Positions 878-36,451 of a stretch of 54,861 nucleotides of DNA are shown here, piece by piece. Position numbers and translations under genes: made by a program. The DNA is taken from the NCBI GenBank assembly GCA_026989535.1, contig JALSJD010000179.1, positions 1 through 54,861 of the forward strand. The letters are read 5' to 3'. Source of the stretch: Cyclobacteriaceae bacterium. Its GTDB lineage: Bacteria > Bacteroidota > Bacteroidia > Cytophagales > Cyclobacteriaceae. Under the pieces are notes generated by a model that was given only the letters and a program-made list of their open reading frames with translations, did no database searches and was not told the DNA's origin. Numbering within the stretch: position 1 is the stretch's first letter; each line of letters starts with the position of its first letter.

Positions 878-2563
878 TCAATTAATAGAGATGCCCTTAA
901 TATATTCCACCACCTTGCTATCAGCAAAGCCAATTCTTGCAGCCATAAAATACGCTCGTTCTCCTTTAAGCAGCTTTATGGGATTTTGGTAAAGCTGCCA
1001 GCCAGCATTTAACCCAGGCTCTAATGGTTTTTTGCTAACAATATATACAAGAGAGGCTCCTTCTGTACCAGTGGAGGCTGTAATTTTATCATTTACATAT
1101 TCTAAGATTGGCGAACTGGTAACGGGCTGCACCCCTCCAGGCCACATCTTATGCAATAAATCCAGCTCAACTTCAGCCCCTTTATCACCAACTGTAGCTA
1201 ACCAATCTTCAAGGGCCGTGCGCATTTCTTTTACCTTATTGGCATAGGCGGAGTCATTAATTATATTATGCATATTATAGGGGTCGGCATTAACGTCATA
1301 TAGTTCTTCTGCTGGCTTATGTGGTTTAAACCATTGAGCGGTTGGCCCTTTTAAACTATCTTTATCCCGAAGAGATAATAACGTATTCATCATATCTATA
1401 TTTTTGCGGTAGGTTACATCTTTATAAGCAGGTAGTTCGGGGTAATAATTTTTTACATATAAATAATTTTTATCCCTAACTGTACGTATGCGATCCGAGT
1501 AATCATCAAACCGATCGCCAGAGCCAAATACATAGTTTCGAGCGGTGCCGGCTTTTTTGTGTGTACCAAGAAAAGCACGGCCTTGCATATAATCAGGCAC
1601 TTGAATGCCTGCAAGCGAAAGTACTGTTGGCGCCAAATCAACAAAGGAGATAAGTTCATCTACCCGACCGGCAGCTTTACTGTGAGGAAAACGTACAAGA
1701 AAAGGCACTTTTAATCCAGAATCGTAGTGTTCTCGTTTGCCTCGGGGAAGCGGCCCGCCATGGTCGCTGTAAAAAAAGATGATGGTATTATCAAGCAAAC
1801 CAGCATCTTCAATTTCTTTAATAAGGTCAGCTACCTGCTTATCCAATAGTTCAATATTGGAATAGTTTCTGGCAACATCCTGCCGAACTACCGGATTATC
1901 GGGGTAATACGGTGGCAAAGGTACTGTTTCCTTATCTACGGTTAAAGGCAGTTCTTTATTGAGCCAAATTCTTGACTCATGAGTTATATCTAAATTAAAT
2001 ACAGCAAAAAAGGGCTGTCCTTCTGCCCTATTCTTCCAATGGGCTTTATCGTTGTTGGCATCCCAGGCAGATACTGGTGCAGCAAACTGGTAATCGGTTT
2101 TAACATTATTAGTACAATAGTACCCCGCCTCTCTAAGGTATTCAGTAAAACATTTTATTTCAGGAGGGGTAACCACAGAGTATAATGGCACTTTATTACC
2201 TTTAATATCTTTGGCATTTGAAGGCAAATTGTATTTTCTTAACCCCCAACCATTATAATCTTTGGCCGTGCGCATATTATGTGTACCAATAGAAATTGGG
2301 TACATACCAGTAATAATGGAAGAACGACTGGGAGCACAAACCCCTACTGTGGCAAAGGCATTGGTGTAAATAAGGCTTTCGGCAGCAAGTTTATCAAGGG
2401 TTGGTGTGCTGGCGGTACTATCGCCATAAAAGGAGAGCGTGGGGCTAATGTCTTCGCAGGTAATCCAAAGAATGTTGGGCTGCGATTGCTTTTGTGCTGT
2501 AAGCAGATGGTTGCTGTTTATAAACCAGGTGAAAGCGATTAAAAATTGATAGGAAATTTTCAT
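878..2563 (-). CDS. Secreted sulfatase (family S1, formylglycine type)
   Basis: This is a type I sulfatase that hydrolyses sulfate esters or N-sulfate on glycans. The protein has 561 residues, a normal family length, with an N-terminal signal peptide (about 1-23). The metal-binding start reads NILWITCEDISP, and the signature CAPSRSSIITG places the cysteine to be converted to formylglycine at about residue 76. A SDHGG motif in the second half supplies further metal and substrate ligands. The ITCEDIS start resembles the N-sulfoglucosamine-sulfohydrolase-like subfamily (S1_8), but that assignment is from memory. It is the last gene of the PUL. Its final residues and stop (GISIN, TGA) lie in a short sequence that recurs at 36610-36628. 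A maturation enzyme (anSME) is not in the window. Confidence 0.93.
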   Translation of the reverse strand: MKISYQFLIAFTWFINSNHLLTAQKQSQPNILWITCEDISPTLSFYGDSTASTPTLDKLAAESLIYTNAFATVGVCAPSRSSIITGMYPISIGTHNMRTAKDYNGWGLRKYNLPSNAKDIKGNKVPLYSVVTPPEIKCFTEYLREAGYYCTNNVKTDYQFAAPVSAWDANNDKAHWKNRAEGQPFFAVFNLDITHESRIWLNKELPLTVDKETVPLPPYYPDNPVVRQDVARNYSNIELLDKQVADLIKEIEDAGLLDNTIIFFYSDHGGPLPRGKREHYDSGLKVPFLVRFPHSKAAGRVDELISFVDLAPTVLSLAGIQVPDYMQGRAFLGTHKKAGTARNYVFGSGDRFDDYSDRIRTVRDKNYLYVKNYYPELPAYKDVTYRKNIDMMNTLLSLRDKDSLKGPTAQWFKPHKPAEELYDVNADPYNMHNIINDSAYANKVKEMRTALEDWLATVGDKGAEVELDLLHKMWPGGVQPVTSSPILEYVNDKITASTGTEGASLVYIVSKKPLEPGLNAGWQLYQNPIKLLKGERAYFMAARIGFADSKVVEYIKGISIN

Positions 2564-2636
2564 AAGTGAAAGTTGTTAGTTTTACCTCAATTACTTTTAA
2601 CTATTAATGCCAAAATTTGATGAGGCAACTATTTTT

Positions 2637-3362
2637 TTACTCAAATTGTAATGTGCCAAAATTATGAATTTCATGAAAGCTACTGTTTATTGCTTGCCAC
2701 GACCAATACATTCCTTTTTTGTTCACGTAATCCATTCGGTACATATTGGTTTTCCATACCGTGCCGGGTTCAGGGGGCATTTGCCCAAGTGGCAAAAGCA
2801 ATGAAAACGGAATGAAAAATTCGCCTGTCCAGCTTGTAATACTGGCACCGCTTTCTTTGCTACCTCCTTGCACTGCGGTTTGGTGCAAAACTGCTCTGTC
2901 ATCTTCATAAAACCACGGCTGCCACCTATGCCGCTGCTCGCCCATATTCATAACCATTAAGGGAAGTTCGTAATTAAGTGGAGATAGCTCATACTCGAAA
3001 TACGCTTCTTTGGAGGTATCTGGCCATAGAAAAACTTCTACCACATCTTCTGTCCACAGGTGTTTATTGTCTTCTAAAATAGAGGCATCTAATCGGGTAT
3101 CCTGGCTAAAGAATAAAAAATAAATGCCTTTATTAGAATAGAGTACTTTAAACTTTGTTTCCATGGGGGTATCTAACTGCTTTCGCTGTGCCATATTAAC
3201 CCATTGTGTGCTTTGCCAACTATTGGCTTTTCCATCACCGCTTAATTCAAAGTCTGCTGTTTTTTTTGCTAAAAGAGAGGTGTTGTCAATTGATTTTTCC
3301 TGAGCCATACTAATCGAGCTAAAAAAGGTTAAAAAAAGAAGTAATGCTGTGCTTCGTTTCAT
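2637..3362 (-). CDS. Carbohydrate-binding family 9-like secreted protein
   Basis: This 241-residue protein has a signal peptide (about 1-20, ending SMAQ) followed by a single beta-sandwich of the CBM9-like type. Supporting marks are the N-terminal WQSTQW segment, the stretch LWTEDVVEVFLWPD typical of this family, and the C-terminal SWTGEFFIPFSLL strand with a WKTNMYRMD motif. Such proteins bind sugars or glycan ends in the periplasm or at the surface and often stand alone in Bacteroidota PULs. It lies 73 bp upstream of the terminal sulfatase in the same orientation. Its ligand cannot be predicted. Confidence 0.8.
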   Translation of the reverse strand: MKRSTALLLFLTFFSSISMAQEKSIDNTSLLAKKTADFELSGDGKANSWQSTQWVNMAQRKQLDTPMETKFKVLYSNKGIYFLFFSQDTRLDASILEDNKHLWTEDVVEVFLWPDTSKEAYFEYELSPLNYELPLMVMNMGEQRHRWQPWFYEDDRAVLHQTAVQGGSKESGASITSWTGEFFIPFSLLLPLGQMPPEPGTVWKTNMYRMDYVNKKGMYWSWQAINSSFHEIHNFGTLQFE

Positions 3363-3605
3363 TTTTTGTTTGTTTTAGGGTGAATAAACAATGTCTGTCC
3401 ATAAATCCGATAGCTATCGGGTCAGTGTCTTTAAAACCTGCGTTGTTGTAAAAGTTTCAAATGTCTAAATTTTACTATTTTTATATTCTAAATGCTACTT
3501 CCCCCTATTTACAGATTCCTGCCTACGCAGGAATGACGGTATCATTGTTATTAGGTTCTTGATTTTGAATGAATGACAATATTGGAATTTATAGACAAAC
3601 ACTAT
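3363..3605. other. Intergenic region with two perfect small hairpins
   Basis: The 243 bases between the CBM9-like gene and the amidohydrolase contain the palindrome CCGATAGCTATCGG (3407-3420) and the hairpin ATTCCTGC-CTAC-GCAGGAAT (3515-3534) followed by GACGG. The second is of the dispersed intergenic kind often seen in Bacteroidota. Neither has a clear T-run, so a terminator role is uncertain. Confidence 0.5.
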
Positions 3606-4733
3606 TTAGTTTTCTTTCCATGCATTTACAAATATTTTTTCTGCGTTAGTGCGGTAAAGCTTATCTACTACTTGTTTGGGCAATGCTAGGCCTTTAACAG
3701 GGTCGTCCAGTTGGGGCACTTTTACCATTTCCTCTGTATTAAAATAAGCCCAATCGTTTAGCCAAACTTCCATCATGTATTTTTTCAGGTCTTCAAGGTC
3801 GGTTTCCTCTTTCTGCCCAAAATCGGTGGCATAAAGAATTCTATCTTGGTATTTTATAAAAAAGTTACGCACTTTTTCGCGATCTTGTTGCGATTGGTAC
3901 TGAGTATGGCTTACACGTTCGGCCAAATCGAGGCTGGCATTAGGAAAGCGATCCAGAAATTTGGCTGCTTCGTCCACACTCCACTCCAAGCTGGCCATAT
4001 GAACCGCCACAAAAGGTATATCAGTGTTTTTGGCCAACATATTATCCCTCGCTTTTATCTGATCTTCATAGGAAGGCAATTCGGGATGCAGGTACATATG
4101 GTACTGAGGGTGGCTTTTAAAATAATTATAATCATTTTTTACCGTCATTGAGTCGAGTGGCAACCAACAGTTTTTGGGTTCGCCCGCATGGCTTAGCAAT
4201 ACCTTACCCTGGTCTTTTATAAACTTAAAAACTTGGTCAAATTTTGGATCATCAATCATAATCAGGTTGCCGTCTTTATCTTTGGCTTCCATGCCTATGT
4301 TTTTCCAAATTTTTACAGAGTTAGCTCCTTTTTCAAAGTCTTTGCTGAGTTGATCGATTACACGGTCGGCCCAGTCCTCACTGTCCCAGCCAGTTAAGGT
4401 AAATGCCGTACTAAACGCGATTAAGTCGGGTTCGTCTGCATGGTGTTTTGCCCTAATGGCTACCTGTTTTTCAACAGCAGGGTAACTAGGTACATCTACA
4501 GAAATATCTAACAGGCGAAAGTTATAGTCTCGCGCCAAGTCCATTATTGTGGTGCCTTCTGTATAAATATGTACATGAGAATCAATCTTTTTCATGGTTT
4601 TAAAATCGTCCATTGTGTAGGTTTCGCTCGCTTCTGTAGTGTTTTCGTTTTCTGAAGACGAGCTTGTTTTTTGAGTGCACCTTGCAGCTACAATAAGAAA
4701 CACCACTAATAATAAATTAATATGTACTTTCAT
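3606..4733 (-). CDS. Amidohydrolase-2 family lipoprotein (TIM-barrel metal hydrolase)
   Basis: The 375-residue protein has a lipoprotein signal with the lipobox VAARC (Cys near residue 19), so it is probably anchored in the outer membrane. The mature part begins with a metal-binding DSHVHIYTEG motif near residue 50. It continues with conserved TIM-barrel pieces: SVKIWKNIG, LLSHAGEP, VAVHMASLEW and YATDFGQ, giving the His, His and Asp ligands expected in amidohydrolase-2 enzymes. Family members are decarboxylases, lactonases or amidases acting on small acids or sugar lactones, and the substrate here is unknown. It lies 28 bp downstream of the D-aminoacylase-like gene, suggesting co-transcription and a shared pathway. 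Confidence 0.8.
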   Translation of the reverse strand: MKVHINLLLVVFLIVAARCTQKTSSSSENENTTEASETYTMDDFKTMKKIDSHVHIYTEGTTIMDLARDYNFRLLDISVDVPSYPAVEKQVAIRAKHHADEPDLIAFSTAFTLTGWDSEDWADRVIDQLSKDFEKGANSVKIWKNIGMEAKDKDGNLIMIDDPKFDQVFKFIKDQGKVLLSHAGEPKNCWLPLDSMTVKNDYNYFKSHPQYHMYLHPELPSYEDQIKARDNMLAKNTDIPFVAVHMASLEWSVDEAAKFLDRFPNASLDLAERVSHTQYQSQQDREKVRNFFIKYQDRILYATDFGQKEETDLEDLKKYMMEVWLNDWAYFNTEEMVKVPQLDDPVKGLALPKQVVDKLYRTNAEKIFVNAWKEN

Positions 4734-4761: not shown

Positions 4762-6270
4762 CTATTTTTTATATTTTCCATAAATTGGCTGACCTGGGAA
4801 AACGCCTTCCACAGTTTTGCCTTTTTTAACAACAAAAACACCATTAACCATCACATAGCGAATGCCTTCAGAAAACTCCAAGCCTTTTTCAAAAGTTGCT
4901 TTATCAATTATAGTTGCGGGGTTAAAAATGGTAATATCTGCATCAGCTCCTACTTGTATTCTTCCTTTAAACCGCATTATTGGCGCAATTTTTTCAAGCC
5001 TTTTTGCCGGCAGAAATGTTATCTTATTAATGGCCTCTGCTAAGCTTAACACGTTGTCTTCTCTAACATATTTACCCAAAACTCTGGAAAAAGTACCAGC
5101 AGTTCTTGGGTGAGCCAATTTGGCATAGGGCATACCATCGGAAGCGATGATAGTGCCTGCGGATGAAATTCCTGCCTGAATCCATGCAGGTTTCATCATG
5201 TGCATAATCACCGTGCCTCCCTCTTTTCTATATGTTTTAAACGTTTTCTCTGTCAGTCTTTCCCCTGTGGTAACCCACTGCAAATCGTTATAACTCATGC
5301 CGAACCTACTTTGCCAACCTTCATTAAAAAGGACTGAGGAAATATCAGTAGAAGCTGCGGTGTAAGGGTAAAGTTCTGTGGTAATATCAAATCCTCTTTT
5401 CTGTGCTGTGTTCACCATTTCTATGGCAAGTTCAATTTCGCCCAATGTCATACTATTAATATGCACAATATGTAATGGCGCATTTGTAAGTACGGCATCC
5501 GAAATTACTTGCTGAACTGCCATTGCCCCTCCTTTACGAACATGTGTAAAAACGGGTGCTTGTAAATCTCCTGCCAACTGGTAAAGTCTAAATATTTCCT
5601 CTCTGGTTGCACCGGGCACATAGCCTATTGGATTGCCAATGCCCACGCCACCATCGGCTAATGATTTTTTGATATTTGCCAGCATTTCAGCAATTTGCCT
5701 TGCGGATAGTTCCTTATTAAAAGAAGAGGCGGCATAGGAAAATGATTTAGCAAAGCTAAAGTTTCCTCCCGAGGTCGATTCTCTAAACTCCGATACTTTT
5801 GTATCCTCTTCACGCATTGTTTTAAGCCTGCTAAAGTACCATGGAACACTTGCCCCATAATTAATAAGGGCTTTGGAGGCTCTGGCGGCATACCATTCTT
5901 TTAAAAAGCCCACTCCCCATTCCAATTCCAGCGCAGTAGTTACGCCATCATGCACCTGATATTCCTGCTCTTTATTGCCAATGCCATGAACATGCAAATC
6001 GATAAACCCCGGTGCTACTACAAGCCCCGACACCTCAATATTTTCATGGCCAATTAATGAATTATCTGAAATTTCGGTAATACGTCCATTTTGTATCCCT
6101 ACGTTTTTTACTGCATCCAGTCCTGTTTCGGGGTCAATAACCCTGCCTCCGGTTAATACAATATCAAATTTTATATTGGATTGCCCCCATGCAAACTGCG
6201 TTAAAAAAACACCTATAATGCACACCCAAACGGTTGATGTAATTGTTTTAATAAAATTGTTAAATGCCAT
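4762..6270 (-). CDS. D-aminoacylase-like amidohydrolase, secreted
   Basis: This 502-residue protein has a signal peptide (about 1-29) and the two-part layout of N-acyl-D-amino-acid deacylases. There is a small beta domain (DIVLTGGRVIDPETG), the metal-binding APGFIDLHVHG near residues 84-94, HVRKGG and HIVHINSM histidine motifs, the ASDGMPY aspartate, and the closing GADADITIFNP domain. Classical D-aminoacylases have GNCG after the first barrel strands; here the equivalent stretch reads TALELEWGVG, so a glutamate may replace the metal-bridging cysteine. The enzyme probably removes an acyl group from an amine in the periplasm. Inside a PUL with hexosaminidase and sulfatases, an N-acyl amino sugar or D-amino-acid substituent is a plausible substrate, but this is inference. 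Confidence 0.82.
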   Translation of the reverse strand: MAFNNFIKTITSTVWVCIIGVFLTQFAWGQSNIKFDIVLTGGRVIDPETGLDAVKNVGIQNGRITEISDNSLIGHENIEVSGLVVAPGFIDLHVHGIGNKEQEYQVHDGVTTALELEWGVGFLKEWYAARASKALINYGASVPWYFSRLKTMREEDTKVSEFRESTSGGNFSFAKSFSYAASSFNKELSARQIAEMLANIKKSLADGGVGIGNPIGYVPGATREEIFRLYQLAGDLQAPVFTHVRKGGAMAVQQVISDAVLTNAPLHIVHINSMTLGEIELAIEMVNTAQKRGFDITTELYPYTAASTDISSVLFNEGWQSRFGMSYNDLQWVTTGERLTEKTFKTYRKEGGTVIMHMMKPAWIQAGISSAGTIIASDGMPYAKLAHPRTAGTFSRVLGKYVREDNVLSLAEAINKITFLPAKRLEKIAPIMRFKGRIQVGADADITIFNPATIIDKATFEKGLEFSEGIRYVMVNGVFVVKKGKTVEGVFPGQPIYGKYKK

Positions 6271-6494: not shown

Positions 6495-7418
6495 CTATAT
6501 ATCTTTTCTAAATGAGGTGGTAATAAAATTTAACCCTTCGCCAATATAGGGTCGCCAGTAATTCCAATTATGGCCTCCGTCATACACTCTAAATTCATGT
6601 TTAATTTTCCTGTCTCTAAAGGTTTTATGCAGCATAATATTCCCATAAAATAAAAAATCATCATCCCCGCAACTGATATACCAATCGGTTGTATTTAATT
6701 GCTCTTCAGAAAGTTTTTTTGCCAGATAGAGTGGGTTATTATCGTTCCAGTGTTTAGAGAGGCGGTCTTTTCCTTGTACATTTTTGCCGTACATAGGCTC
6801 GTACAGGCGATCAAACCTATTTTGAGGGATTAATACAGCTTCATCATCGGGCCTTATACCCGAACTATAAGCTACGCAAGCACCAAACACATTGGGGTGG
6901 CGCATAGCATAACCCAAGGCGCCAAAGCCACCCATTGACAGGCCGCCAATAGCTCTGTATTTTCGGTCAGGCTTGGTTTGGTAGGTTTTATCTATAAATG
7001 GAATAAGCTCTTCGATAAACATATCTTCGTAATTAAACTTACCATTAGGTTGGTTTAAGTACCATAAAAGACCTCCATCGGGCATTACAATAATCATTTC
7101 TTCCACTTGGCCTGCTATAATACCCTGGTCGGCTGCCTGATCTACCCAGCCTTTGTTTACCCAAGCGGTTTCGTTATCGGTATAGCCATGCAAAAGATAA
7201 AATACCGGGTATGTTTTTGTGGCATCTTTGCCATAAGATGCCGGTAGGTAGATGGAGTAATTGATTGCGCTATCTAACAGTTGGCTTTGGAATTTAAGCG
7301 ATTGCAGCACCTTTCCTCGAGATTGTGCCAAAGAAGTTGTAATAAACAGGCTTAATAGAAGTATGAGTGCATAGTTTGCCCAACTTCCTTGTGTTCGTTT
7401 TTTTAAAGATTTTTTCAT
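6495..7418 (-). CDS. Secreted esterase, esterase-D/CE1 type alpha/beta hydrolase
   Basis: The 307-residue protein has a signal peptide (about 1-32). Its single alpha/beta-hydrolase domain carries the oxyanion-region YLLHGYTDNETAW, the nucleophile elbow GGLSMGGFG (Ser near residue 161), a likely acid in CGDDDFLF, and the catalytic His in DGGHNWNYWRPYI. Homologues deacylate polysaccharides (acetyl or feruloyl groups, family CE1) or hydrolyse related esters. It sits 14 bp downstream of a sulfatase in the same direction, so removal of O-acyl decorations together with sulfates is likely. The acyl group cannot be told from sequence alone. Confidence 0.87.
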   Translation of the reverse strand: MKKSLKKRTQGSWANYALILLLSLFITTSLAQSRGKVLQSLKFQSQLLDSAINYSIYLPASYGKDATKTYPVFYLLHGYTDNETAWVNKGWVDQAADQGIIAGQVEEMIIVMPDGGLLWYLNQPNGKFNYEDMFIEELIPFIDKTYQTKPDRKYRAIGGLSMGGFGALGYAMRHPNVFGACVAYSSGIRPDDEAVLIPQNRFDRLYEPMYGKNVQGKDRLSKHWNDNNPLYLAKKLSEEQLNTTDWYISCGDDDFLFYGNIMLHKTFRDRKIKHEFRVYDGGHNWNYWRPYIGEGLNFITTSFRKDI

Positions 7419-7432: not shown

Positions 7433-8986
7433 TTAATCGTTCATATTATCTATTCCCTTAATGTAAAAACTCTTTATTTCAGGAGTTTCATGCTCGGCTG
7501 CCATCACTCTTGCAATTTCATCTACCATTTCAGGATATTTTTCAGCCAAGTTGTTTTGTTCTCTTGGGTCTTCTTCCAGGTTAAATAGCTCAATATCCAT
7601 ATTGCCTTCTTGCATATTTAGCCTAAGGCCTTTCCATTTACCCATACGCACAGCTTGTTGCCCGTTGTAGGCCGAAAATTCCCAGTAGAGAAACTCATGT
7701 TCGGCTTGTGTTGAATCGCTCACTAATGTTGGGTAAAAGCTAATTCCATCTGTTGAGTAATTGGTTTTAGCACCGGCAATATCGCATAATGTAGGCAGCA
7801 CATCCCAAAATGCAGAAATGTGATTGGTTGTTGTTCCGGGTTTAATTTTACCCGGCCAGGCGGCAATCATAGGTACACGTATTCCGCCTTCATGGGTATA
7901 TCCTTTTGCCCAACCCCTGTCAATTTTAAATGGTTTGGCACTGTTAAACCATTTAGAATCGGCACCACCGGCATAAGTAGGGCCGTTGTCTGAGGTAAAA
8001 ATAATTAATGTATTTTCATAGAGCCCAAGGTCTTTAAGTTGCTGTACCAGTTTACCTACGTGGTCATCAAGGTAAGAAACCATTGCTGCATAGGAAGCAC
8101 GTGGATACCTGTTTGGAAAGTACGGGTATAGACTTTCACTTCCATTGTATGGGGTTTCATCGCCAAATTTAGCTACGTACTTATCTACCCATTCCTTTGG
8201 GGCTTGCAAAGGCACATGCGGAATTGGAGTAGCCCAATAAAGGAAAAAGGGGTTGTCTTGGTTATCATTAACAAACTGGGTTAATTCAGAAAACATTAAA
8301 TCAGGTGCATAATCATTTAAATTGAATTTATTATAATTTGCAGGGTCGTATGGATCGGCTCCTACATCTAAAGAGGTATGGGGAGGAACAATGTCATTAT
8401 CAAGGTACACTCGATTTTCATTTTTATATAAATGTGTGGGATAATAGGTGTGTGCCTGCCGCTGGCAATTGTAGCCATAAAAAAAATCAAAGCCCTGTTT
8501 GGTAGGAATACCCTCTGTGTGAGGAGCACCAAGCCCCCATTTGCCTATAAGGCCTGTTTTATACCCCGCTTGCTGAAGCAGGCTGCCTATGGTAACCGTG
8601 CCTGGGAGTAAGGGTCGCTGGCCTTCAAGGGTAGAATCTTTGAGCATAGCCATATAATTCCATACATCGCCTCGTGCATCCCACTCATCATTGCCTCTTA
8701 TTCTGGTGTGCCCACCGTGTTTTCCGGTAAGCAGTACACTTCTGGAAGGCGCACAAACCGGAGCTCCTGAGTAGTGTTGGGTAAACAGCATACCGCTCTC
8801 CGCTAATTTATCTATGTTGGGCGTTTCAATTTTTTCCTGGCCATAAACGCCTAGCTCTGCATAGCCCAAATCATCGGCTAAAATGTAGATAATATTGGGT
8901 TTTTTAGCAGCGTTTTTCTTTGGTGAACAAGAAAAAATAGTGGCTGTTAAAAGAAAAAAGAATCCTGTTGATGCTATAAATTTCAT
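7433..8986 (-). CDS. Sulfatase lipoprotein (family S1, arylsulfatase-like)
   Basis: The start is placed at the ATG at 8986 rather than one at 9061, because only the shorter form begins with a proper lipoprotein signal (hydrophobic core, then TIFSC; Cys near residue 20). The 517-residue product has NIIYILADDLGYAELGVYG with the first metal ligands, the formylglycine signature CAPSRSVLLTGK (Cys near residue 78), and FTSDNGPTYAGG in the second half. The CAPSR...HTRIRGNDEW region is characteristic of a large group of Bacteroidota arylsulfatase-A-like enzymes. It should act on sulfate esters of glycan fragments at the cell surface or in the periplasm. It is followed closely by the CE1-type esterase. 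Confidence 0.92.
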   Translation of the reverse strand: MKFIASTGFFFLLTATIFSCSPKKNAAKKPNIIYILADDLGYAELGVYGQEKIETPNIDKLAESGMLFTQHYSGAPVCAPSRSVLLTGKHGGHTRIRGNDEWDARGDVWNYMAMLKDSTLEGQRPLLPGTVTIGSLLQQAGYKTGLIGKWGLGAPHTEGIPTKQGFDFFYGYNCQRQAHTYYPTHLYKNENRVYLDNDIVPPHTSLDVGADPYDPANYNKFNLNDYAPDLMFSELTQFVNDNQDNPFFLYWATPIPHVPLQAPKEWVDKYVAKFGDETPYNGSESLYPYFPNRYPRASYAAMVSYLDDHVGKLVQQLKDLGLYENTLIIFTSDNGPTYAGGADSKWFNSAKPFKIDRGWAKGYTHEGGIRVPMIAAWPGKIKPGTTTNHISAFWDVLPTLCDIAGAKTNYSTDGISFYPTLVSDSTQAEHEFLYWEFSAYNGQQAVRMGKWKGLRLNMQEGNMDIELFNLEEDPREQNNLAEKYPEMVDEIARVMAAEHETPEIKSFYIKGIDNMND

Positions 8987-9473
8987 CCAAAATAATCCTG
9001 TTTGACAAAAATCGTCTGTTTTCTTAGAGACACTAAATAAGTTGCTTTTATTCTTTTTCATAAAAATTAAATCTTTATACTTTAGGGGCTGTTTTTACCT
9101 ACTAAAAAGTTATTTACTGATGTTACACAAAACAACTCACGTCATTGCGAGAGCGGAATCCGACCAGTTGGCGGATCAGCGTAGGAAGATGACAGAAAAT
9201 ATGTCCTGCCCCGTCCTTAAAAATGGAGACCCTGCAACAAGTGCGGGGAAACGTTCTTTTTATGTACTTTGCCAGATCTGTTCTGGGGCATCCCCTTTTT
9301 AATCTGTCAATGGTAGCGTAGCTTCTCCTTCGTAGTTTAACTACGGAGAAGAAACGAAGCAATCTGTCTTTTTGCACTATAAGTGCAGATTGCCTGCCTT
9401 GCCAGCAGGCAGGCTTCGGTCGTTCCTCCCTACCATTGACGGTTTTTATTTTGTTTTTGTGTAACACTGGTTA
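8987..9473. other. Repeat-filled gap between two sulfatase genes
   Basis: No gene is supported here; the open frames are made of repeat sequence. The gap holds the inverted-repeat-bounded element at 9121-9466. The sequence TCTTAGAGACACTAA near 9024-9038 closely resembles TCTAAGAGACACTAA near 109-123. Confidence 0.55.
9121..9466. repeat. MITE-like element with TGTTACACAAAA ends
   Basis: The 346-bp segment begins TGTTACACAAAA and ends with the exact reverse complement TTTTGTGTAACA. Nested within are the inverted pair GTCAATGGTA (9306-9315) and TACCATTGAC (9431-9440), a near-palindrome CTTCTCCTTCGTAGTT/AACTACGGAGAAG, and a GCCTGCC...GGCAGGC hairpin (9392-9414). No transposase is encoded, so I infer a non-autonomous element or a composite of smaller repeats. 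Confidence 0.6.
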
Positions 9474-29700: not shown

Positions 29701-30069
29701 AGTTACACCGGTTTTCCACCCTGTAAGCTTACCTAATTTTGATTTTTGGGTTATATCTTCGAACTTAAACCCTCCTTTATTCAAATACAGTTTACCTCCT
29801 TCTTGATTGGAACTAAAGTAGATATCGACTAAACCATCGTTGTTGATGTCTCCTACAGCTACGCCTGCACCATTATAAAAATTGGTGTATCCAAATACAT
29901 TATTATTAATATCTTCTTTTATTGTATTTGCAAAATCAATACCCGAAACCTTAGAATCGATTAATTCCAAGAGGGGTTGAGTTTGCGGCTGCTCTTTTTC
30001 GAGTGTGCTACAAGCATATACTATAAATAATAAGAGGGGTAAAACGCTATAGAAAAACAGGTTTCGCAT
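26746..30069 (-). CDS. CRTAC1-like FG-GAP/VCBS repeat lipoprotein with ASPIC/UnbV domain
   Basis: The 1107-residue protein has a lipoprotein signal (VYACST; Cys near residue 20). At least ten calcium-type FG-GAP/VCBS repeats follow (VGDINNDGLVDIYFSS, VDINQDGLLDIYI, DYDLDGDLDMFLLN, ADIDNDGFQDLFVLD, ADLDNDGDMDLIVNN and others), which fold as beta-propellers. An ASPIC/UnbV domain sits in the middle (YLGIRLKGSQSNLNGIGSKI... LKVTWPDGKVSVL). Such proteins are common in Bacteroidota PULs just after SusD, but their biochemical role is not established; surface glycan binding or adhesion is usually proposed. The first gene after the susD terminator, it is likely expressed with the PUL enzymes. Confidence 0.9.
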   Translation of the reverse strand: MRNLFFYSVLPLLLFIVYACSTLEKEQPQTQPLLELIDSKVSGIDFANTIKEDINNNVFGYTNFYNGAGVAVGDINNDGLVDIYFSSNQEGGKLYLNKGGFKFEDITQKSKLGKLTGWKTGVTMVDINQDGLLDIYICRSGRARPKLRRNLLFVNNGDLTFTERAVEYGLGDTSSSLQASFFDYDLDGDLDMFLLNHAIDPVKELVKKFDEYGTDKLTGDKIYRNDNGYFSEVTDFIGLHQSQLNDGLGLAVGDFNNDLFPDIYVCNDFAGRDYFYINKGDGSFKEAALEVMNHISYSSMGVDMADIDNDGFQDLFVLDMKSSSNYKRKTNMSSMNPKAFQVLVYAGGHYQYMRNTLQLNNGNQSFSDIAPLAGVTSSDWSWAPLFTDLDNDGLKDLFVTNGMKKNTNNKDFDIYMKKRIELERRKNVPDYETMMQEVLDKVPSEKAVNLVYKNIDGLTFEQNNTNWGVTMPSFSNGAAYADLDNDGDMDLIVNNIDEVAHIYRNNSREITGNNYLGIRLKGSQSNLNGIGSKIMIQAAGKKQYLEQYVSRGYQSSVDFTLHFGLGQAELIDTLKVTWPDGKVSVLSNVNVNQLVSVKHAGAVKPDELNKKHSLLFSEVTSTYGLNHTHIENKYDDFKREVLLPHKMSTFGPALAVGDVNNDGLDDFFIGGAKDSEGVIYFQNKDKSFTKTTQKEIASDKLHEDTDALFFDADSDGDLDLYVVSGGNELPEGDAYYQDRLYLNNGNGEFARMVKYLPKMVSSGGVVQAYDYDNDGDTDLFIGGRLKPGQYPKADRSYLLENRNGKFIDVTANQAKELLVPGMVTDALWSDYDADGTKDLILVGEWMPITIFKNNKGTLTKLTGDSTLSNSGGWWFSIAEGDVNNDGRMDYIVGNLGENYKYKAKPGAPFRLFSNDFDNNGSLDIVLSYFENDTLYPLRGKQCSSEQMPSLKKKFKDYNSFGLATLEDVYEAGNLEASDLLEAKTFASSLLINTLNGFTLKPLPKIAQISAVFGIIYEDFDMDGLKDIVIAGNLYNSEVETPRSDASQGLFLKGDGKGGFTPVRGYDSGLFIPGDVKKLKFIHLGSASDKGVIAGINNDFVRIVSSAN

Positions 30070-30347: not shown

Positions 30348-31877
30348 CTATCCACCTGTACTAATTTGTTCATTAGCATCAATCTCTATTTGAGGAACTG
30401 GGAAGTAAATTTTAGAATCATCGAGGTAGTTAAAATTACTGCCTGGGTATTTAGCTTCTAAGCCGGCTCTCCATAATTCTATATACCTTCCACTTCTAAT
30501 CAAGTCTAACCTTCTGCTGCCTTCCATAAAGAGTTCTTTTGCTCTTTCTTCTAAAATGGCATCACGTAAGGCAGTTTGGCTTAAACCAACTAAATCGGCT
30601 ACTCCAGCCCTAGCTCTTACCTCATTAACCAATGCCATTGCTCCAGCTTGATCGCCCGTTTCGTTTAACCCTTCTGCTCTTGTAAGTAAGATATCGGCAT
30701 AGCGCAAAACGATGTAATTAACGCCTGTACCTGCACCTAAGTGGGGGGCAAATCGATCATGCCCACCTGCATATTTAATAAAAGGTACGGAAGTATTATC
30801 TACAAGATCAATACCAGGAGCAATAGCTAAGGCATCGTACTCTGGGGTGTTAGGAGCAGCAAAATACATATCTCCATCATCTCCTGTTCGCATTCTGCTA
30901 TCTTGATAGCCATTGGCCATTAAGGTTCTTCTTTCATCATTCAGATCGAATGAGTTATAAAAATCTACAGAGACCGTAAGGTTGCCCCACCCGCCACTTT
31001 GATAAGTACCAGCCAAGGCAAACCAAGACAATGTGTTTGTGGCTCCTGCCGTACCTGTTTCAGACTGAACCGCAAATATAAATTCGTTATCCGACCTATT
31101 ATTTGCATCGTACAAACTCAGGAGCTGACCAGCAGGCATTAAGTCGTATTCGCCTAAGTCGATAACTGCTTTTGCATCTACTGCTGCTGCTGCCCAATTT
31201 TTAGCATTAAGGTTTGTTTTCGCCCTTAGCCCTAAAGCAGCTCCTTTCGTTGCTCTTCCAACTCCATCATACACATCAGAAGAAGGCAATACAGCTATGG
31301 CATCTGTTAAATCTTTTAAAATTTGCGTAATTACCTCCGCCTGAGGGCTTAATGGCAAATCTTCACTTTCGCCCAACTTTAACACCACATCCTTAAAGTT
31401 AAAGGTAAGGTCGTAATAAGCCAGTGCTCTTAAAAATTTAGCTTCGGCTATAAAACCTGCTTTCGCATTGGCATCAATATCCATACCTTCTAAAGTGCTT
31501 ATAGCAAAATTAGCACGATCAACCACCAAATATGCCGAGGCCCACACGTCTAAAATAAACTGTTGGTTGCCGTCCCAAGTGCCGGTTTCAAGGGGGTCAG
31601 TGCCTGGAGACCATGTATCTTGCCCATAATCTGTAGGCAGCTCGCTAAGTTGAATATAATTATGCTTATAATAGGCCGCAAACCCCTGGCTCCATCCTTT
31701 GAGCCCAGCATAAGCCCCTAAGATGAGTACTTCTGCATCTGCTTCGGTTTCATAGGCTGTATCAGCTATTACTTCAGAATAAATTGTTTCTGTCAATTGC
31801 TCTTTACATGACATTATACTTATCAGCATTAATCCTAATGCCAATAAGGGAATTTTTATCATTTTCATAATCATCAT
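30348..31877 (-). CDS. susD: SusD/RagB family outer-membrane glycan-binding lipoprotein
   Basis: The 509-residue protein has a lipoprotein signal (SIMSCKEQ) close to several possible ATG starts (residues 1, 2, 4 and 6); the first was kept. SusD/RagB landmarks include helical TPR-like segments (LILGAYAGLKGW, AEAKFLRALAYYDL, GLRAKTNLNAKNWAAA), NYIVLRYADILLTRAEGLNETG, VNEVRARAGV and the closing ELFMEGSRRLDLIRSGRY...YFPVPQIEIDANEQI. It sits on the outer face over the SusC channel and captures oligosaccharide. The start lies 16 bp after the susC stop, so the two are co-transcribed. Sequence alone does not reveal the bound glycan. Confidence 0.95.
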   Translation of the reverse strand: MMIMKMIKIPLLALGLMLISIMSCKEQLTETIYSEVIADTAYETEADAEVLILGAYAGLKGWSQGFAAYYKHNYIQLSELPTDYGQDTWSPGTDPLETGTWDGNQQFILDVWASAYLVVDRANFAISTLEGMDIDANAKAGFIAEAKFLRALAYYDLTFNFKDVVLKLGESEDLPLSPQAEVITQILKDLTDAIAVLPSSDVYDGVGRATKGAALGLRAKTNLNAKNWAAAAVDAKAVIDLGEYDLMPAGQLLSLYDANNRSDNEFIFAVQSETGTAGATNTLSWFALAGTYQSGGWGNLTVSVDFYNSFDLNDERRTLMANGYQDSRMRTGDDGDMYFAAPNTPEYDALAIAPGIDLVDNTSVPFIKYAGGHDRFAPHLGAGTGVNYIVLRYADILLTRAEGLNETGDQAGAMALVNEVRARAGVADLVGLSQTALRDAILEERAKELFMEGSRRLDLIRSGRYIELWRAGLEAKYPGSNFNYLDDSKIYFPVPQIEIDANEQISTGG

Positions 31878-31893: not shown

Positions 31894-34800
31894 TTAAAAA
31901 GATAGTCTTACGCCAACAGTATAAGTTCTAAAATTAGGGAATCCGTTGTCATCAACCCCACGCCCTACAGCTCTGGAAGATCCTCCATAATTAAAACTAA
32001 CTTCTGGGTCAAACCCAGAGTACTGCGTAAAAGTAAGCAGGTTTTGAGCTTGCACATAGATTTCTGCATTTTGCAACCAAGAGATGTTACTTGAATTAAA
32101 CTTATAGGTAAGTACTACATTTTTTAACCTTACATAAGAAGCATCCTCTATAAATTCAGTATTTACATAAGAGCCATACTCTCCGTAAAAATAGCTTAGA
32201 CCTGGCCGTGTACCTGAAGGATTAATAGAACTGTACCTATCATTTGCTTTTGTGCTGGTAAATTCATCAATCATCAACGCTCTAATGTTGAGGACGTCAT
32301 TGCCTTGTACTCCCTGAAAAAACACATCTAAGCTAAAGCCTTTATAGCTAAACCTATTGTTTAACCCCCAAATAAAGTCGGGAGTGGCATTGCCAATCAC
32401 AGTTCTGTCATCTCCATCAATCACCCCGTCTCCATTTATATCTTCATACTTAGCCTGGCCTGCTACCGAGTTAGGTTGCGGGGTATATGTTTCGCCTGGC
32501 TGGATAATACCAGCATAGACGAAGCCAAAAAAGTCGCCCATCTCTCCCCCTTCAATCATTTGTCTAAATACATGTTCTCTTGTTTGCCAAGAAGGCCTTC
32601 TTTCAATATTTAATGAGATTGGTGCTCCGGCAAGTTTAGTAATTGTATTTACATTTTTAGCTAAATTAGCAGATGCTGTCCATTTAAAGTCACCATCGAG
32701 GATATCGCCACCAAGTGTGAGTTCTATCCCTTTATTATTCATTTCTCCAACATTGGCTCTTTTATAAACTTTACCTGCAGATGGTGGTAAAGGCCTATCA
32801 ATAATTAAGTCCACTGTGTTGGTGTTATATACTTCGGCCGAACCAAACATTCTGCTACCCCAAAAGCCAAAATCAAGCCCTATATTAAGCATTCTGGAGG
32901 TTTCCCATTTTAAATCGGGGTTTTTGGCATACACACCATCAACAGTTAATCCTGTACCAGATGATTGACCATCATAACTGTATAAAGCTGTAGAACCTAC
33001 CCTTGCTAAAGAAGTGTATGGTGAAAAGTTAGTATTGCCGGTAACACCATAAGCAAGCCTTAGCTTAAGATTATCCACAAGGTTTGAGCTGCTTAAAAAG
33101 TCCTCTTCCGAAATCCTCCAAGCTGCAGAAGCAGAAGGGAATGCTCCCCACTTATTATTTCTTCCTAATTGAGAGGCCCCATCTGCTCTTAACGTTGCGG
33201 TAAGTAAATACTTATCTCTAAAACTATAGTTCGCCCGCCCAAAAAATGATATGATACGGCTAGCTGCTCTTGAACTACCTATAAATTGCTCTGCCGCAGA
33301 CCCTAAATTATAGAAAGATGTTTGATCTGTTGGAAAATCGCGCCCTCTTGCGAAAAAATTGTAATTATCGAAGTATTGATTAGAAGCACCCAGCAATATA
33401 TTTAAACTATTATCCTCAGAAAGTGAAGGTGTATAATTAAGTGTTCCTTCAATAAGAGAACTTGTTGATTTTGCTTCAAAAATATCTGCATTAGACCTTA
33501 GGCCAGATGCAGAATAAGCAACCGGGTAAAATATAGAGCTTGTATTAGTTGTATTATCGTAACCTACATTAACCTTGGCTACCAATCCTTCCATAATTTC
33601 ATAATCTGCCCATAGGGTTAGGTAAGTTCTAAATCCAGTAATGTCTCTTTCAGGAACTTCCATTCTGCCAAGAGGGTTTATCCATGGCCTGTTGGCGTTG
33701 TCTCGAGAAAATACCGTGTTACCATAGCTACCATCCGGATTATAAGCAGCTCTGCCAGGCGCAGTCATTAATAAACTATACATAACCGAATTACCACGGA
33801 AACCTGCCCTGTTCCATACCTCTGAAGCCTTAGTGCGTGCTGTGTACATATTTACACCCACATTGGCTTTTTTTCCAAATTTCCTGTCCACATTTAAGCG
33901 AACCGAAGCACGGTTAAAATCGGTATTAAGCAAAACACCTTCCTGACTAAAAGAGTTTGCAGATAACGAAAACCGAGTAGTTTCGTCTCCACCGCTAGCA
34001 CTAATAGTATGGCTTTGAATACCGGCAGACCTTGTGCCTTCTTCAATCCAGTCTGTATCATTTTCCAGGGCTAAATCTGCAGCATCATACCAAGGGAGGC
34101 CATTATTGGGGCCATCAGCATAAAAAGCGTTTCTGTTAGCAGCATATTCATCCCAGCCTAAAAATTCCATGGTGTTATTAATTTGCTGCACTCCGGCAAA
34201 TCCGTCATAAGTAACACTTACTTTACCTCTTTTACCTCTTTTAGTGGTAATTAAAACTACTCCTGAGGAGCCCCTTGAGCCGTAAATAGCAGCAGCCGAA
34301 GCATCTTTTAGTATATCAATCGACTCAATATCGGCAGGGTTAATAGAAACACCCGCAGCAATCGGAAAGCCATCTACTACATATAAAGGCTCCGTACTAT
34401 TTGAGATAGAACTATTACCTCTAATAACAATAGATAGCTCACCACCAGGTTTGCCGTCTCCGCTTGATACTTCTACACCAGCCGCCCGGCCTTGTAACAT
34501 TTGTGCAGCCGAAGTTACAGCAGCACCGGTAGTCATGTCTTCTTCACTCAATGCTACTACAGCCCCTGTTAAATCTCTTTTCTTAATTTCGCCATAACCT
34601 ATCACTACAATTTCTTCTAAACTGGTAAGGTCTGGTGTCATTGAAATATTAATTACCTGCCTTGCGCCTACTGCTGCTTCTTGGGTTTCGTACCCTATAT
34701 AAGAAAAAACAAGTACAGAAGACTCATCGGCTACAGTTAATTTATAATTACCATCTACGTCTGTTACCGTACCATTAGTTGAGCCTTTTATTATGATGTT

Positions 34801-35274
34801 AACACCTGGTAAAGGTTCTCCGTTAATATCGGTAACTGTGCCTCTTATATCTATTGCTTTAAGCACCAATACCAGTGCTTCGTTCTCTAAAGGTTTTAAT
34901 TTTTTATTGGGCTTTTGTACGTTTATGTTTTTGTTTACCTGTTTAAACCTAAGGTTGCTTTCTTTTGAAATATCTAATAATATTTCGTACAAAGTAGTGT
35001 TTTTATAGCTGCCACTAAGCCTTGTTTTACGGCTAAGATCTTTCTCAAAAAACACAAATTTGTATTCTGTTAAATCCTCAATTTTGGAAAAAACAGTCTC
35101 TAGCTTTTCATCTGTAAAGCTAATATCAACATTCACATCTTTTACGCTCTTTACTTTTTGGCCGTGCGTGTTCCCGGCTGCCAGCAACATACCGCCTACC
35201 AACAATTGGGTTATTATACCATAAAGTGAATACATTAAGACTTTTTTTAATAAAAGTAATCGTTTAAATTTCAT
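31894..35274 (-). CDS. susC: SusC/RagA TonB-dependent outer-membrane transporter with STN signalling domain
   Basis: The start is set at the ATG at 35274 (MKFKRLLLL), which begins the signal peptide; an in-frame ATG at 35352 would add 26 non-signal residues. In the 1126-residue product, a secretin/TonB short N-terminal (STN) domain comes first (SFTDEKLETVFSKIEDLTEYKF). A carboxypeptidase-regulatory-like domain (GEPLPGVNIIIKGSTNGTVT), the TonB-box-like region, a plug (LQGRAAGVEV, NSISNSTEPLYVVDGFPI, DILKDASAAAIYGSRGS) and the 22-strand barrel follow. It imports glycan fragments captured by SusD. The STN domain implies signalling to the FecR encoded just upstream. Confidence 0.96.
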   Translation of the reverse strand: MKFKRLLLLKKVLMYSLYGIITQLLVGGMLLAAGNTHGQKVKSVKDVNVDISFTDEKLETVFSKIEDLTEYKFVFFEKDLSRKTRLSGSYKNTTLYEILLDISKESNLRFKQVNKNINVQKPNKKLKPLENEALVLVLKAIDIRGTVTDINGEPLPGVNIIIKGSTNGTVTDVDGNYKLTVADESSVLVFSYIGYETQEAAVGARQVINISMTPDLTSLEEIVVIGYGEIKKRDLTGAVVALSEEDMTTGAAVTSAAQMLQGRAAGVEVSSGDGKPGGELSIVIRGNSSISNSTEPLYVVDGFPIAAGVSINPADIESIDILKDASAAAIYGSRGSSGVVLITTKRGKRGKVSVTYDGFAGVQQINNTMEFLGWDEYAANRNAFYADGPNNGLPWYDAADLALENDTDWIEEGTRSAGIQSHTISASGGDETTRFSLSANSFSQEGVLLNTDFNRASVRLNVDRKFGKKANVGVNMYTARTKASEVWNRAGFRGNSVMYSLLMTAPGRAAYNPDGSYGNTVFSRDNANRPWINPLGRMEVPERDITGFRTYLTLWADYEIMEGLVAKVNVGYDNTTNTSSIFYPVAYSASGLRSNADIFEAKSTSSLIEGTLNYTPSLSEDNSLNILLGASNQYFDNYNFFARGRDFPTDQTSFYNLGSAAEQFIGSSRAASRIISFFGRANYSFRDKYLLTATLRADGASQLGRNNKWGAFPSASAAWRISEEDFLSSSNLVDNLKLRLAYGVTGNTNFSPYTSLARVGSTALYSYDGQSSGTGLTVDGVYAKNPDLKWETSRMLNIGLDFGFWGSRMFGSAEVYNTNTVDLIIDRPLPPSAGKVYKRANVGEMNNKGIELTLGGDILDGDFKWTASANLAKNVNTITKLAGAPISLNIERRPSWQTREHVFRQMIEGGEMGDFFGFVYAGIIQPGETYTPQPNSVAGQAKYEDINGDGVIDGDDRTVIGNATPDFIWGLNNRFSYKGFSLDVFFQGVQGNDVLNIRALMIDEFTSTKANDRYSSINPSGTRPGLSYFYGEYGSYVNTEFIEDASYVRLKNVVLTYKFNSSNISWLQNAEIYVQAQNLLTFTQYSGFDPEVSFNYGGSSRAVGRGVDDNGFPNFRTYTVGVRLSF

Positions 35275-35377
35275 ATCTTTGTTAAGGTTTTTAATGTGGA
35301 AAATTACATTGGAACTTTTCTTACTTATTGAAGTATTCACGTGTCCAAGCATGAGTTCAATAAGAAAGAATTTTTAC

Positions 35378-35400
35378 AGTGGTGCTCCTAGAGCACTGCT
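35378..35400. other. Hairpin between fecR and susC
   Basis: GTGCTC (35382-35387), loop CTA and GAGCAC (35391-35396) form a perfect core stem with extra imperfect pairing on both sides. On the plus strand a T-run follows, but both neighbouring genes run on the minus strand, so a classical terminator for fecR is not supported. It may be a leader structure of the susC message. Confidence 0.4.
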
Positions 35401-35437
35401 GTTTTTTTATTATTTAGTTTGTTTCATTTAATTTGTT

Positions 35438-36451
35438 TCATTTAGTTATTTGTGGTTTATAATTAATTACTACTTTTTTATTGTTTATAGTATAGGTAAA
35501 ATTAGCTGTATGGCTAAGCGATAGTAATACTTCTTCTAATGATTGGTTATCGAATCTTGCAATTAAATCCCATTTAGCAGCACTCTTATTTTTTACCGTA
35601 ATATCTACGCCATACCACCTTTCTAGTCTTTTAATCACATTATCTTCACTGGCATTATTAAAATAAATAATACCGTCTTTCCATCCTGTTTCGTGCCCGT
35701 TTACAAAATTTGATGCAATTAACAGGTTTTCGCCTTTATTATAGGAGACCTTTTTGTTTGGAAATAAATAAACTATACCTGATGCATCGCTTTTATTCTC
35801 ACTTAACGTGTTTTCTACTTTTACCTTACCAGTAACAACGGCCACTTCAACAAGGTTAGACTCTGGGTAGGCATTTATGTTGAATGAAGTACCCAGTACT
35901 GTGGTTGAAATATTACTTGTTCGTATTACAAATGGCCTTTTTGAGTCTTTTACTACTTCAAAAAAGGCTTCTCCTTCCAATACTACTTCTCTTTTTTCAT
36001 CGCTAAACGTGCTTGGAAATTGCAGTTTTGACTTGGCGTTTAATTTAACAACAGTGCCATCTGAGAGTCTAAAAGTTAGTTTTTCGCCATTATCGGTTTT
36101 TTTGGCTTTCCATGCTGTTAGTTGCGGCTTTATAATGTCTTCTTTTTCGATATAATACAGGGTTAAGCTTAGGCCTAACACTACAACTATCGTAGCGGCA
36201 ATTTTGTAAAATCGATTAAACAGAGGAGTTCTAACAGGTTTAAAGCGCTCTTCCTTTAATTCTATTTTACGTTGAATACCTTGGTGCAAACGTTGATTAA
36301 AGTGTGCGATATCTCCCAACTTATCTGTATCCCAAGGTTCATTGTCTGCTCTATGCGAATCAAAAAAATCAAGAAGGTATTTTTCTTCTTGTACGGAGCT
36401 TTCTCCGTCCATGTATTTATCTATTAGTTGTTTTAACTCTTGCTTGGTCAT
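35438..36451 (-). CDS. FecR-family anti-sigma factor
   Basis: The 337-residue inner-membrane protein starts with a cytoplasmic helical segment for sigma-factor binding (residues 1-80; MTKQELKQLIDKYMDGESS). One membrane span follows near 83-101 (FYKIAATIVVVLGLSLTLYY). The periplasmic FecR domain (FRLSDGTVVKLNAKSKLQFP, REVVLEGEAFFEVVKDSKRPFVIRT, VLGTSFNINAYP) precedes a C-terminal STN-like fold that contacts the transporter. It would relay substrate sensing by SusC to an extracytoplasmic-function sigma factor. Unusually, no sigma-factor gene lies beside it; upstream are 680 bp of repeats and then clpB. The partner must be elsewhere or lost. Confidence 0.93.
   Translation of the reverse strand: MTKQELKQLIDKYMDGESSVQEEKYLLDFFDSHRADNEPWDTDKLGDIAHFNQRLHQGIQRKIELKEERFKPVRTPLFNRFYKIAATIVVVLGLSLTLYYIEKEDIIKPQLTAWKAKKTDNGEKLTFRLSDGTVVKLNAKSKLQFPSTFSDEKREVVLEGEAFFEVVKDSKRPFVIRTSNISTTVLGTSFNINAYPESNLVEVAVVTGKVKVENTLSENKSDASGIVYLFPNKKVSYNKGENLLIASNFVNGHETGWKDGIIYFNNASEDNVIKRLERWYGVDITVKNKSAAKWDLIARFDNQSLEEVLLSLSHTANFTYTINNKKVVINYKPQITK

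Follow-up and report, generated by a model that had tools for sequence, protein, structure and literature searches.

The window analysed here is an entire contig of 54,861 nucleotides (JALSJD010000179.1) from the genome of a Cyclobacteriaceae bacterium (GCA_026989535.1; 3.82 Mb in 252 contigs). Positions 878-36451 of its minus strand carry 19 open reading frames (ORFs), separated by short gaps and with a coding density of 93.5%. Judged by gene content, these ORFs constitute a single SusC/D polysaccharide utilization locus (PUL), known in kind and unusual in content, the new element of which is a pair of protein families, designated Tim and Tor, whose four members here carry tails for export by the type IX secretion system (T9SS). 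The explanation we favour, with moderate confidence, is that the PUL serves a sulfated glycan containing both N-acetylgalactosamine (GalNAc) and N-acetylglucosamine (GlcNAc), with TimA and TimB as the backbone-cutting endo-glycosidases and with products that pass into an aga-type operon.

We infer an order of steps in which the exported TimA and TimB would cleave the backbone in the manner of retaining endo-glycosidases, probably at alpha linkages, Asp175 serving as the nucleophile and Glu267 as the acid/base. TorA and TorB, and perhaps a BNR propeller protein, would act on the same chain, and the resulting oligosaccharides would be imported by SusC/D. Substituents would be stripped by sulfatase C (6S-GlcNAc type), sulfatase B (3S-GalNAc/Gal type), a third sulfatase and the esterases, whilst the GH20 enzyme would take off beta-linked N-acetylhexosamine (HexNAc) and the GH109 enzyme alpha-GalNAc. 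The GalNAc would then presumably enter an AgaS/kinase/aldolase operon located elsewhere in the genome.

Exported Tim and Tor proteins and their predicted folds

The initial annotation had described a large single-strand PUL encoding FecR, SusC/SusD, GH20, a GH109-like protein, three S1 sulfatases, two esterase-type hydrolases, two amidohydrolases, a CBM9-like protein and four T9SS-exported proteins. When all 19 ORFs were searched against the Pfam and NCBIfam profiles, every one of these classes was recovered, with scores that exceed chance by far, and homologues of SusC and SusD were found adjacent to each other with the degradative genes co-directional, as is characteristic of a PUL. That description covered 17 of the 19 genes, having overlooked an FG-GAP/ASPIC protein (26746-30069) and a BNR/sortilin-type propeller (11085-13529). 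The four exported proteins each bear a T9SS type A sorting domain (TIGR04183; 47.5-57.9 bits against a cut-off of 23). No model for GH16, GH18, GH88, PL8 or PL12 was matched by the 19 proteins, and no profiled endo-acting family of any kind was recognised among them, in agreement with the earlier statement that a familiar endo-enzyme is lacking. The accompanying suggestion, that the unassigned exported proteins are the likely backbone cutters, is upheld: profile searches place Tim and Tor in no characterised endo family, and the predicted fold of Tim lies nearest to GH168. Tim and Tor most likely supply the missing depolymerising step, and TimA and TimB the missing endo-step.

TimA (16628-18340; TIGR04183 47.5 bits) and TimB (18399-20459; 57.2 bits) are a paralogous pair, 60% identical in the core, and both are predicted (beta/alpha)8-barrel glycosidases, TimB having an extra insert domain. 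By eye, the probable true start of TimB is an ATG at 20423, as its ORF opens with GTG and overlaps the preceding gene, and that of TimA is probably an ATG at 18328. TimA residues are numbered here according to a 468-residue model (window 16865-18268). Neither single Tim sequences nor a 14-row profile matched any Pfam, NCBIfam or PDB entry beyond the T9SS tail and chance level. A Pfam scan of the 14 rows at E up to 10 returned tails in five rows, chitobiase C-terminal and Fn3-associated repeats in two, OpuAC in three (best 0.0079) and other domains in single rows. The PDB library contains, by title, GH168 chains of solved structure, and none was retrieved at E up to 10 with the TimA sequence or the profile. 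The Pfam and PDB searches likewise gave no sequence similarity between Tim and GH191, GH114 or GH166.

The AlphaFold2 model built from the 14 Tim rows (predicted local distance difference test, pLDDT, 73.8; predicted template modelling score, pTM, 0.76) comprises a barrel of eight strands followed by a beta domain at the C-terminus, so that the architecture typical of GH168 is present in the TimA prediction. Of the chains in the first 11 Foldseek ranks (E 5e-11 to 5e-7), eight bear the title endo-1,3-fucanase or GH168, and the remaining three come from two Planctomycetota proteins, PbFucA and 892_05174, for which no family is stated in the title; further down the list were enzymes of the amylase type and a single membrane transporter. 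With VIA-align, rows 1-14 were all GH168 or the Planctomycetota relatives (11 of the 14 titled GH168 or endo-1,3-fucanase), at Z 20.9-23.4, a root mean square deviation of 3.0-3.7, 311-326 aligned residues and 10-18% identity. The next rows were GH191 (16.4), a glucanotransferase (15.3), an amylase (15.1), PgaB (14.7), PelA (14.3) and GH114 (14.1). Two GH168 members are given as superposing at a DALI Z of 40.5 with 29% identity (PMC12210190). The fold neighbourhood of Tim in the model is thus clear and its membership of GH168 is not established; since no sequence search reaches GH168, Tim looks like a new family. A GH114-like identity, which had been guessed from the ‘FLDTF’ motif, was ranked below GH168 after the fold comparison.

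Asp175 and Asn239 are retained in all 14 Tim rows and Glu267 in all 13 rows that reach this position, and by our count on the model these residues end barrel strands 4, 5 and 6, respectively. Conserved polar residues gather at the ends of strands 3-8, even in a phage-encoded homologue that is 40% identical. By our own count, the Asp and Glu come in the same order and at the same strand ends as D206 and E264 of the GH168 enzyme FunA, to which they may be equivalent; the FunA mutants D206E and E264Q are reported to lose activity (PMC7401878). For two further members of GH168, the sources name D196/E254 as the pair in FWf5, with D194 and N234 among its conserved residues (PMC10778895), and Asp167 and Glu237 in MeGH168 (PMC12210190). 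An Asp nucleophile and Glu acid/base are also given for GH114, GH135, GH166 and GH191 (PMC12054363). Tim is, on its predicted structure, most likely a retaining glycosidase.

TorA (13744-15177; TIGR04183 57.9 bits) and TorB (15187-16623; 57.1 bits) form a second paralogous pair, 82% identical in the core. Beyond the T9SS tail and chance level, the toroid part gave no match in Pfam, NCBIfam or PDB, either with sequences or a profile, and Pfam and PDB gave no family-level match to GH88, GH105 or AGE epimerases. The model from eight rows is an all-helical toroid (pLDDT 68.8, pTM 0.78) with the (alpha/alpha)6 fold. Its VIA-align rows at Z 21.6-17.0 were mostly AGE epimerases, GH88 and GH105, with unrelated toroids such as complement proteins reaching Z 17, and no Foldseek match was better than E 0.05. 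Tor is therefore described as a predicted (alpha/alpha)6 toroid to which no chemistry is assigned, since sharing a fold does not reveal function.

Substrate clues and the remaining genes of the locus

Sulfatase C (9474-11033) matched the PDB sequences 7p24 (E 2.7e-179) and 5g2v (E 4.2e-168) at near full length, as did sulfatase B (7433-9061) with 7ana (E 5.2e-183) and 7an1 (E 1.9e-102). A table in PMC10154620 lists 7P24 as BT3177, an S1_11 enzyme acting on 6S-GlcNAc, and 7ANA as BT1622, an S1_20 (3S-Gal) enzyme that cleaves 3S-GalNAc. The C-x-P-S-R site is kept in all three S1 sulfatases, and with their full-length similarity to BT3177 and BT1622, sulfatases C and B are assigned by sequence to S1_11 and S1_20. 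The GH109 protein (22771-24105; PF21252, 164.8 bits) combines an NAD-binding fold and the GH109 C-terminal domain with matches to the solved alpha-N-acetylgalactosaminidase 2ixa (E 1.1e-67) and to 6t2b (E 8.7e-59). The GH20 beta-N-acetylhexosaminidase-like protein (24528-26705) has PF02838 and the catalytic domain PF00728 (55.9 bits, cut-off 22.3), keeps the Asp-Glu pair in its HIGSDE motif and matches hexosaminidases such as 4c7d (E 2.5e-18). By these sequence assignments, the glycan would be sulfated and probably contains GalNAc. The sulfated, HexNAc-containing target proposed at the outset is borne out by the two typed O-sulfatases and the confirmed GH20 and GH109 genes. Regarding the sulfatase targets, the proposal of sulfate esters stands, whilst that of N-sulfate is not supported, its only hint being the Pfam domain name SGSH_C, which is no evidence. 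Exopolysaccharides (EPS) of vent bacteria containing GlcNAc and GalNAc, and others containing sulfate, are on record (PMC5620654). Four HexNAc-rich vent EPS in the same source contain no sulfate, an observation that is neutral on a sulfated HexNAc polymer made by other organisms.

Of 291 genomes in the order, counting that of the window, 11 had a GH20 match at 1e-60; apart from the window genome itself, more than 50% identity was reached only in two of the other 290, designated G180 (58%) and G290 (53%), and the remaining eight were at 27-29%. Within approximately 30 kb of GH20, both encode homologues of the amidohydrolase_2 protein (44-46%), GH109-like proteins (26-36%) and SusC (25-27%), and there is in addition an AXE homologue in G180 (59%) and a CBM9 homologue in G290 (44%). 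Near these GH20 genes lie AgaS-family genes (E 7e-104 and 2e-103; 346-348 bits, under the model cut-off of 529) and PfkB-family kinase genes in both genomes. G180 additionally encodes a class II ketose-bisphosphate aldolase (TIGR00167, 231.6 bits, cut-off 215.6), to which one G290 ORF is homologous, and an AgaR repressor (292.8 bits, cut-off 260). The window genome itself encodes AgaS, PfkB and aldolase homologues in a single run on another contig (C195); these share 47-50%, 55-58% and 61-67% identity, respectively, with their G180 and G290 counterparts. Because of this run and the G180 and G290 clusters, the organism can presumably use GalNAc freed by the locus.

The remaining genes are, from the upstream end, a FecR-type anti-sigma regulator (35438-36451; PF04773, PF16344), the 680 bp upstream of which (36452-37131) lack any ORF of at least 60 aa and so any gene for a sigma factor, and a SusC-type TonB-dependent receptor (31894-35352; TIGR04056, 824.1 bits, cut-off 368.25). 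These are followed by a SusD-type surface glycan-binding lipoprotein (30348-31877; PF07980, 106.2 bits, cut-off 23.1) and the FG-GAP/ASPIC protein of 1107 aa (PF13517, 260.3 bits; PF07593, 81.2 bits). Upstream of TimB is an AXE1-like esterase-type hydrolase of 723 aa (20434-22605; PF05448, 37.9 bits, cut-off 21). Downstream of the sulfatase B gene are genes for an esterase D-type hydrolase (6495-7418; PF00756, E 5.6e-37), an amidohydrolase of the PRK09061 subfamily (4762-6270; NF006560, 503.9 bits, cut-off 340), an amidohydrolase_2 protein (3606-4733; PF04909, 42.1 bits), a CBM9-like protein (2637-3362; PF16011, PF06452) and sulfatase A (878-2563; PF00884, 131.8 bits, CAPSR site). To the left of 878, the sole ORF of at least 60 aa encodes 73 aa on the plus strand, and ClpB, RlmN and ProRS are encoded to the right of 36451.

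The BNR/sortilin-type propeller, a protein of 814 aa (PF15902, 73.7 bits; PF02012) whose N-terminus appears lipobox-like by eye, is perhaps a further candidate for chain cleavage. It had no homologue at 1e-60 among the 290 other genomes of the order. A paralogue with 36% identity occurs in the same genome (L071:69-2555, G000:C45), where it almost fills a 4.9 kb contig.

Distribution of Tim and Tor and a phage homologue

Neither Tim nor the Tor core was found in the 290 other genomes of the order, and Tim occurred in one of the 394 other genomes of a phylum sample, on a phage contig. A single scan of 84,980 species genomes, conducted with two peptide patterns, gave nine Tim loci in eight metagenome-assembled genomes (MAGs) of Bacteroidota and Gammaproteobacteria. 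Six of the eight are from documented vent samples: D96SM and D100SM (two MAGs each) are described as metagenomes of active chimneys on the Southwest Indian Ridge (PMC9174799), and 4281-140 (two MAGs) appears by name in a study devoted to vent deposits (PMC9793634). The other two, M17 and 354-166, are tied to vents by naming only, their labels following the bin-naming style of the latter study without appearing in its main text.

A Tor gene accompanies Tim in six of the eight MAGs (one cut by a contig edge), or seven of nine with the window genome, and the two genes are adjacent in loci L020, L021, L023, L026 and L027. The phage-bearing genome G678 has no Tor, and G673 has only a 53-residue Tor stretch with a stop. 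This remnant (L052, G673:C65, 5270-5428) lies approximately 4 kb upstream of an intact Tim gene, which suggests that Tor was lost there. Locus L020, from a Cyclobacteriaceae MAG (G671), shares AXE, Tim, Tor, Tim, Tor, BNR and sulfatase C with the window at 81-95% identity, save for one Tor at 52%; its BNR counterpart is 86% identical. Since GH109 was absent from five other Tim genomes, Tim and Tor also occur outside loci of the window type. A second Tor of G674, 72% identical to TorA, belongs to a T9SS cluster whose other products are a GH9 protein (PF00759, E 3.5e-93), one with a weak beta-helix match (25.5 bits, cut-off 25.9) and a T9SS protein that fits no family; an outer-membrane receptor-like protein is encoded nearby. 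In this cluster (L051:5795-12634, G674:C48), a 545-aa T9SS protein is encoded by DNA that is approximately 83% identical to L025:8236-9882, a stretch just upstream of two Tim genes.

The Tor-Tim pairs of L026 (8413-11817) and L027 (4459-7893) are 93.3% identical over 3438 aligned bases, whilst their flanks are unrelated except for a further 175-base stretch at 81%. TniB (105.6 bits) and TniQ (35.6 bits, cut-off 27) are encoded upstream in L026, and L027 has a transposase-like fragment marginally under cut-off (24.0 against 24.1). The TimA clade (six rows, support 100/100) contains both Bacteroidota and Gammaproteobacteria, in a tree with three of 11 inner branches well supported. These observations point to horizontal transfer of a Tim-Tor cassette, though binning errors are possible, particularly for L026, which is labelled Flavobacteriaceae and yet shares its cassette at 93% identity with the Lysobacterales L027. 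The Tim proteins of these loci (L026:9827-11671 and L027:5851-7749) have a common end motif, LIFHDGFE, preceded by chitobiase C-terminal repeats, and the adjacent Tor proteins finish in a comparable GFE/SFE motif; these endings may be a sorting tail of an uncharacterised kind. A fixed pairing of the TimA clade with Tor-II and of other Tim proteins with Tor-I was also considered, as it held in five of five one-to-one adjacent pairs (L020 twice, L021, L026, L027). It is not claimed here: L026 and L027 are near-duplicates, and in both the window and L023 the TimA-clade protein is accompanied by no Tor type other than Tor-I. A remote match (L050 in G697; E 4.9e-4, C-terminal part only) had no informative match in Pfam or PDB.

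The phage contig (G327:C44, 46,755 bases; L028 is the same record) has genes for the large subunit of a terminase, DNA polymerase, primase/helicase, ligase, an exonuclease V/Dda-type helicase, a Sak4-like protein and an endolysin, with a replication block (Sak4-like protein, DNA polymerase, primase, ligase) at L053:10580-18558. It was binned as Saprospiraceae, a label that is uncertain. Its terminase found only distant relatives, matching 27 phage records, 16 of which were Pseudomonas phages, with 23.4-23.7% identity among the ten matches listed. The phage Tim (L018:15353-17116; 587 aa) is 40% identical to TimA and 43% to TimB, and lies in the structural-gene region approximately 1.2 kb from an endolysin-like gene, abutting long genes to which no function is assigned. 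This position makes it a candidate virion depolymerase. Among 50,697 phage records, TBLASTN found no match to TimA, to the TorA core or to the phage Tim. Five viral-contig scans for Tim or Tor and one for the terminase were likewise negative; these scans relied on a few short peptide patterns, which makes their negative outcome a weak one. A viral structure library gave weak matches only, ranks 3 and 6 being named ‘Spherulation-specific family 4’ (E 1.5e-3 and 4.9e-2).

Weighing of the readings and comparison with known systems

Several observations weigh against a GalNAc/GlcNAc glycan cut by Tim. The Pfam and PDB searches gave no sequence link between Tim and any known glycosidase family, and the nearest fold, GH168, cuts fucans, yet the locus has no recognised fucosidase. 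The Tim model is of middling quality (pLDDT of the five models 73.8, 70.5, 54.5, 51.4 and 50.9), Foldseek TM-scores against the fucanases, taken on the query, were just 0.44-0.52, and the same list contained an unrelated membrane transporter at E 1.9e-6. Aga-type genes are absent from the locus itself, G180 and G290 represent different families of the order, and no Tim or Tor homologue was found in the stretches of their clusters that were read. In G671, which shares part of the locus, the search for AgaS retrieved no more than a similar stretch of 42 residues containing a stop. GH109 was sought in six of the eight MAGs and found in G671 but in none of the other five; Tim therefore need not act on an alpha-GalNAc glycan.

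The proximity of GH168 in fold, including the C-terminal beta domain, raises the question of whether the substrate is instead a sulfated fucan or another fucose-rich sulfated polysaccharide, with Tim a very distant GH168 endo-fucanase. Three sulfatases would fit such a substrate, and fucose is present in some vent-bacterial EPS (PMC5620654). We nonetheless regard this as unlikely, as Pfam and NCBIfam, in which more recent fucan families may not be represented, revealed no fucosidase in the locus, both typed sulfatases are of HexNAc/Gal types, and Tim scores Z 20.9-23.4 at 10-18% identity, whereas the comparison within GH168 cited above gave 40.5 at 29%. A third candidate, ranked after the fucan and also unlikely, is a mucin-like or glycosaminoglycan-like glycan of animal origin, such as the mucus of vent animals, the locus resembling mucin-utilization loci of gut Bacteroides. 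GH20 and GH109 suit mucin O-glycans. BT3177 and BT1622, to which sulfatases C and B are most similar among characterised enzymes, are entered as mucin-active in PMC10154620. Against this reading, the profile searches of the 19 ORFs revealed no sialidase, fucosidase or galactosidase family, and the phage Tim suggests, without showing, a bacterial surface polymer; this alternative overlaps with the explanation we favour, the difference being the source of the glycan. It is improbable that Tim is a non-catalytic binding or adhesion protein on a reused glycosidase fold, with Tor or the BNR propeller cutting the chain, since, although Tim has no sequence tie to active families and the likewise unassigned BNR protein and Tor are conserved in L020, its polar residues, including Asp175, Asn239 and Glu267, are conserved at the ends of strands 3-8 down to the phage protein.

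A bolder proposal, which is tentative and on balance doubtful, is that Tim and Tor are two new carbohydrate-active families forming a joint depolymerase of a sulfated amino-sugar matrix polymer in vent biofilms, that their cassette moves between Bacteroidota and Gammaproteobacteria, and that at least one phage carries Tim, probably as a virion depolymerase directed against the same polymer. Should this hold, the known carbohydrate-active enzymes would gain two families for which the searched libraries have no curated model, and with them a catalytic pair that can be tested and a narrower choice of substrate. One depolymerase family would be common to phage and to scavenging bacteria of two phyla, and a genetic handle would be available on a polysaccharide recycled in vent-chimney biofilms. 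Titles and abstract openings of the literature on GH168 fucanases, vent polysaccharide utilization and vent EPS with GalNAc gave no description of either family.

Amongst known systems, Tim resembles the GH168 endo-fucanases (Fun168A, MeGH168) in its predicted barrel with a C-terminal antiparallel beta domain, the order of Asp then Glu and the sulfated-polymer context, but differs in its low identity, its lack of a profile match, its lower Z and the lack of a recognised fucosidase nearby. With the endo-alpha-galactosaminidases of GH191, GH114, GH166 and GH135 it shares the predicted (beta/alpha)8 barrel and the Asp/Glu type of its proposed catalytic pair, and their galactosamine substrates would suit the locus. 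The fold scores are lower, however (16.4, 14.1 and 14.3 for GH191, GH114 and GH166), the aligned range misses the C-terminal beta domain, no sequence link was found, and GH135 is not among the fold matches listed. Tor is similar to AGE epimerases, GH88 and GH105 in its predicted (alpha/alpha)6 toroid (Z up to 21.6), but is distinguished by a Foldseek E of 0.05 at best, by T9SS secretion, by the lack of a sequence match and by catalytic residues that were not matched. The SusC/D loci of G180 and G290 differ from the window in lying beside aga-type genes, which the window locus does not contain, and in that no Tim or Tor was found in them, whilst being like it in their GH20, amidohydrolase_2, AXE or CBM9, and GH109-like proteins. 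Although they sit in a different locus and the likeness is by sequence alone, sulfatases C and B are closely comparable to the mucin sulfatases BT3177 and BT1622 of Bacteroides thetaiotaomicron, both over their full length and in the C-x-P-S-R site.

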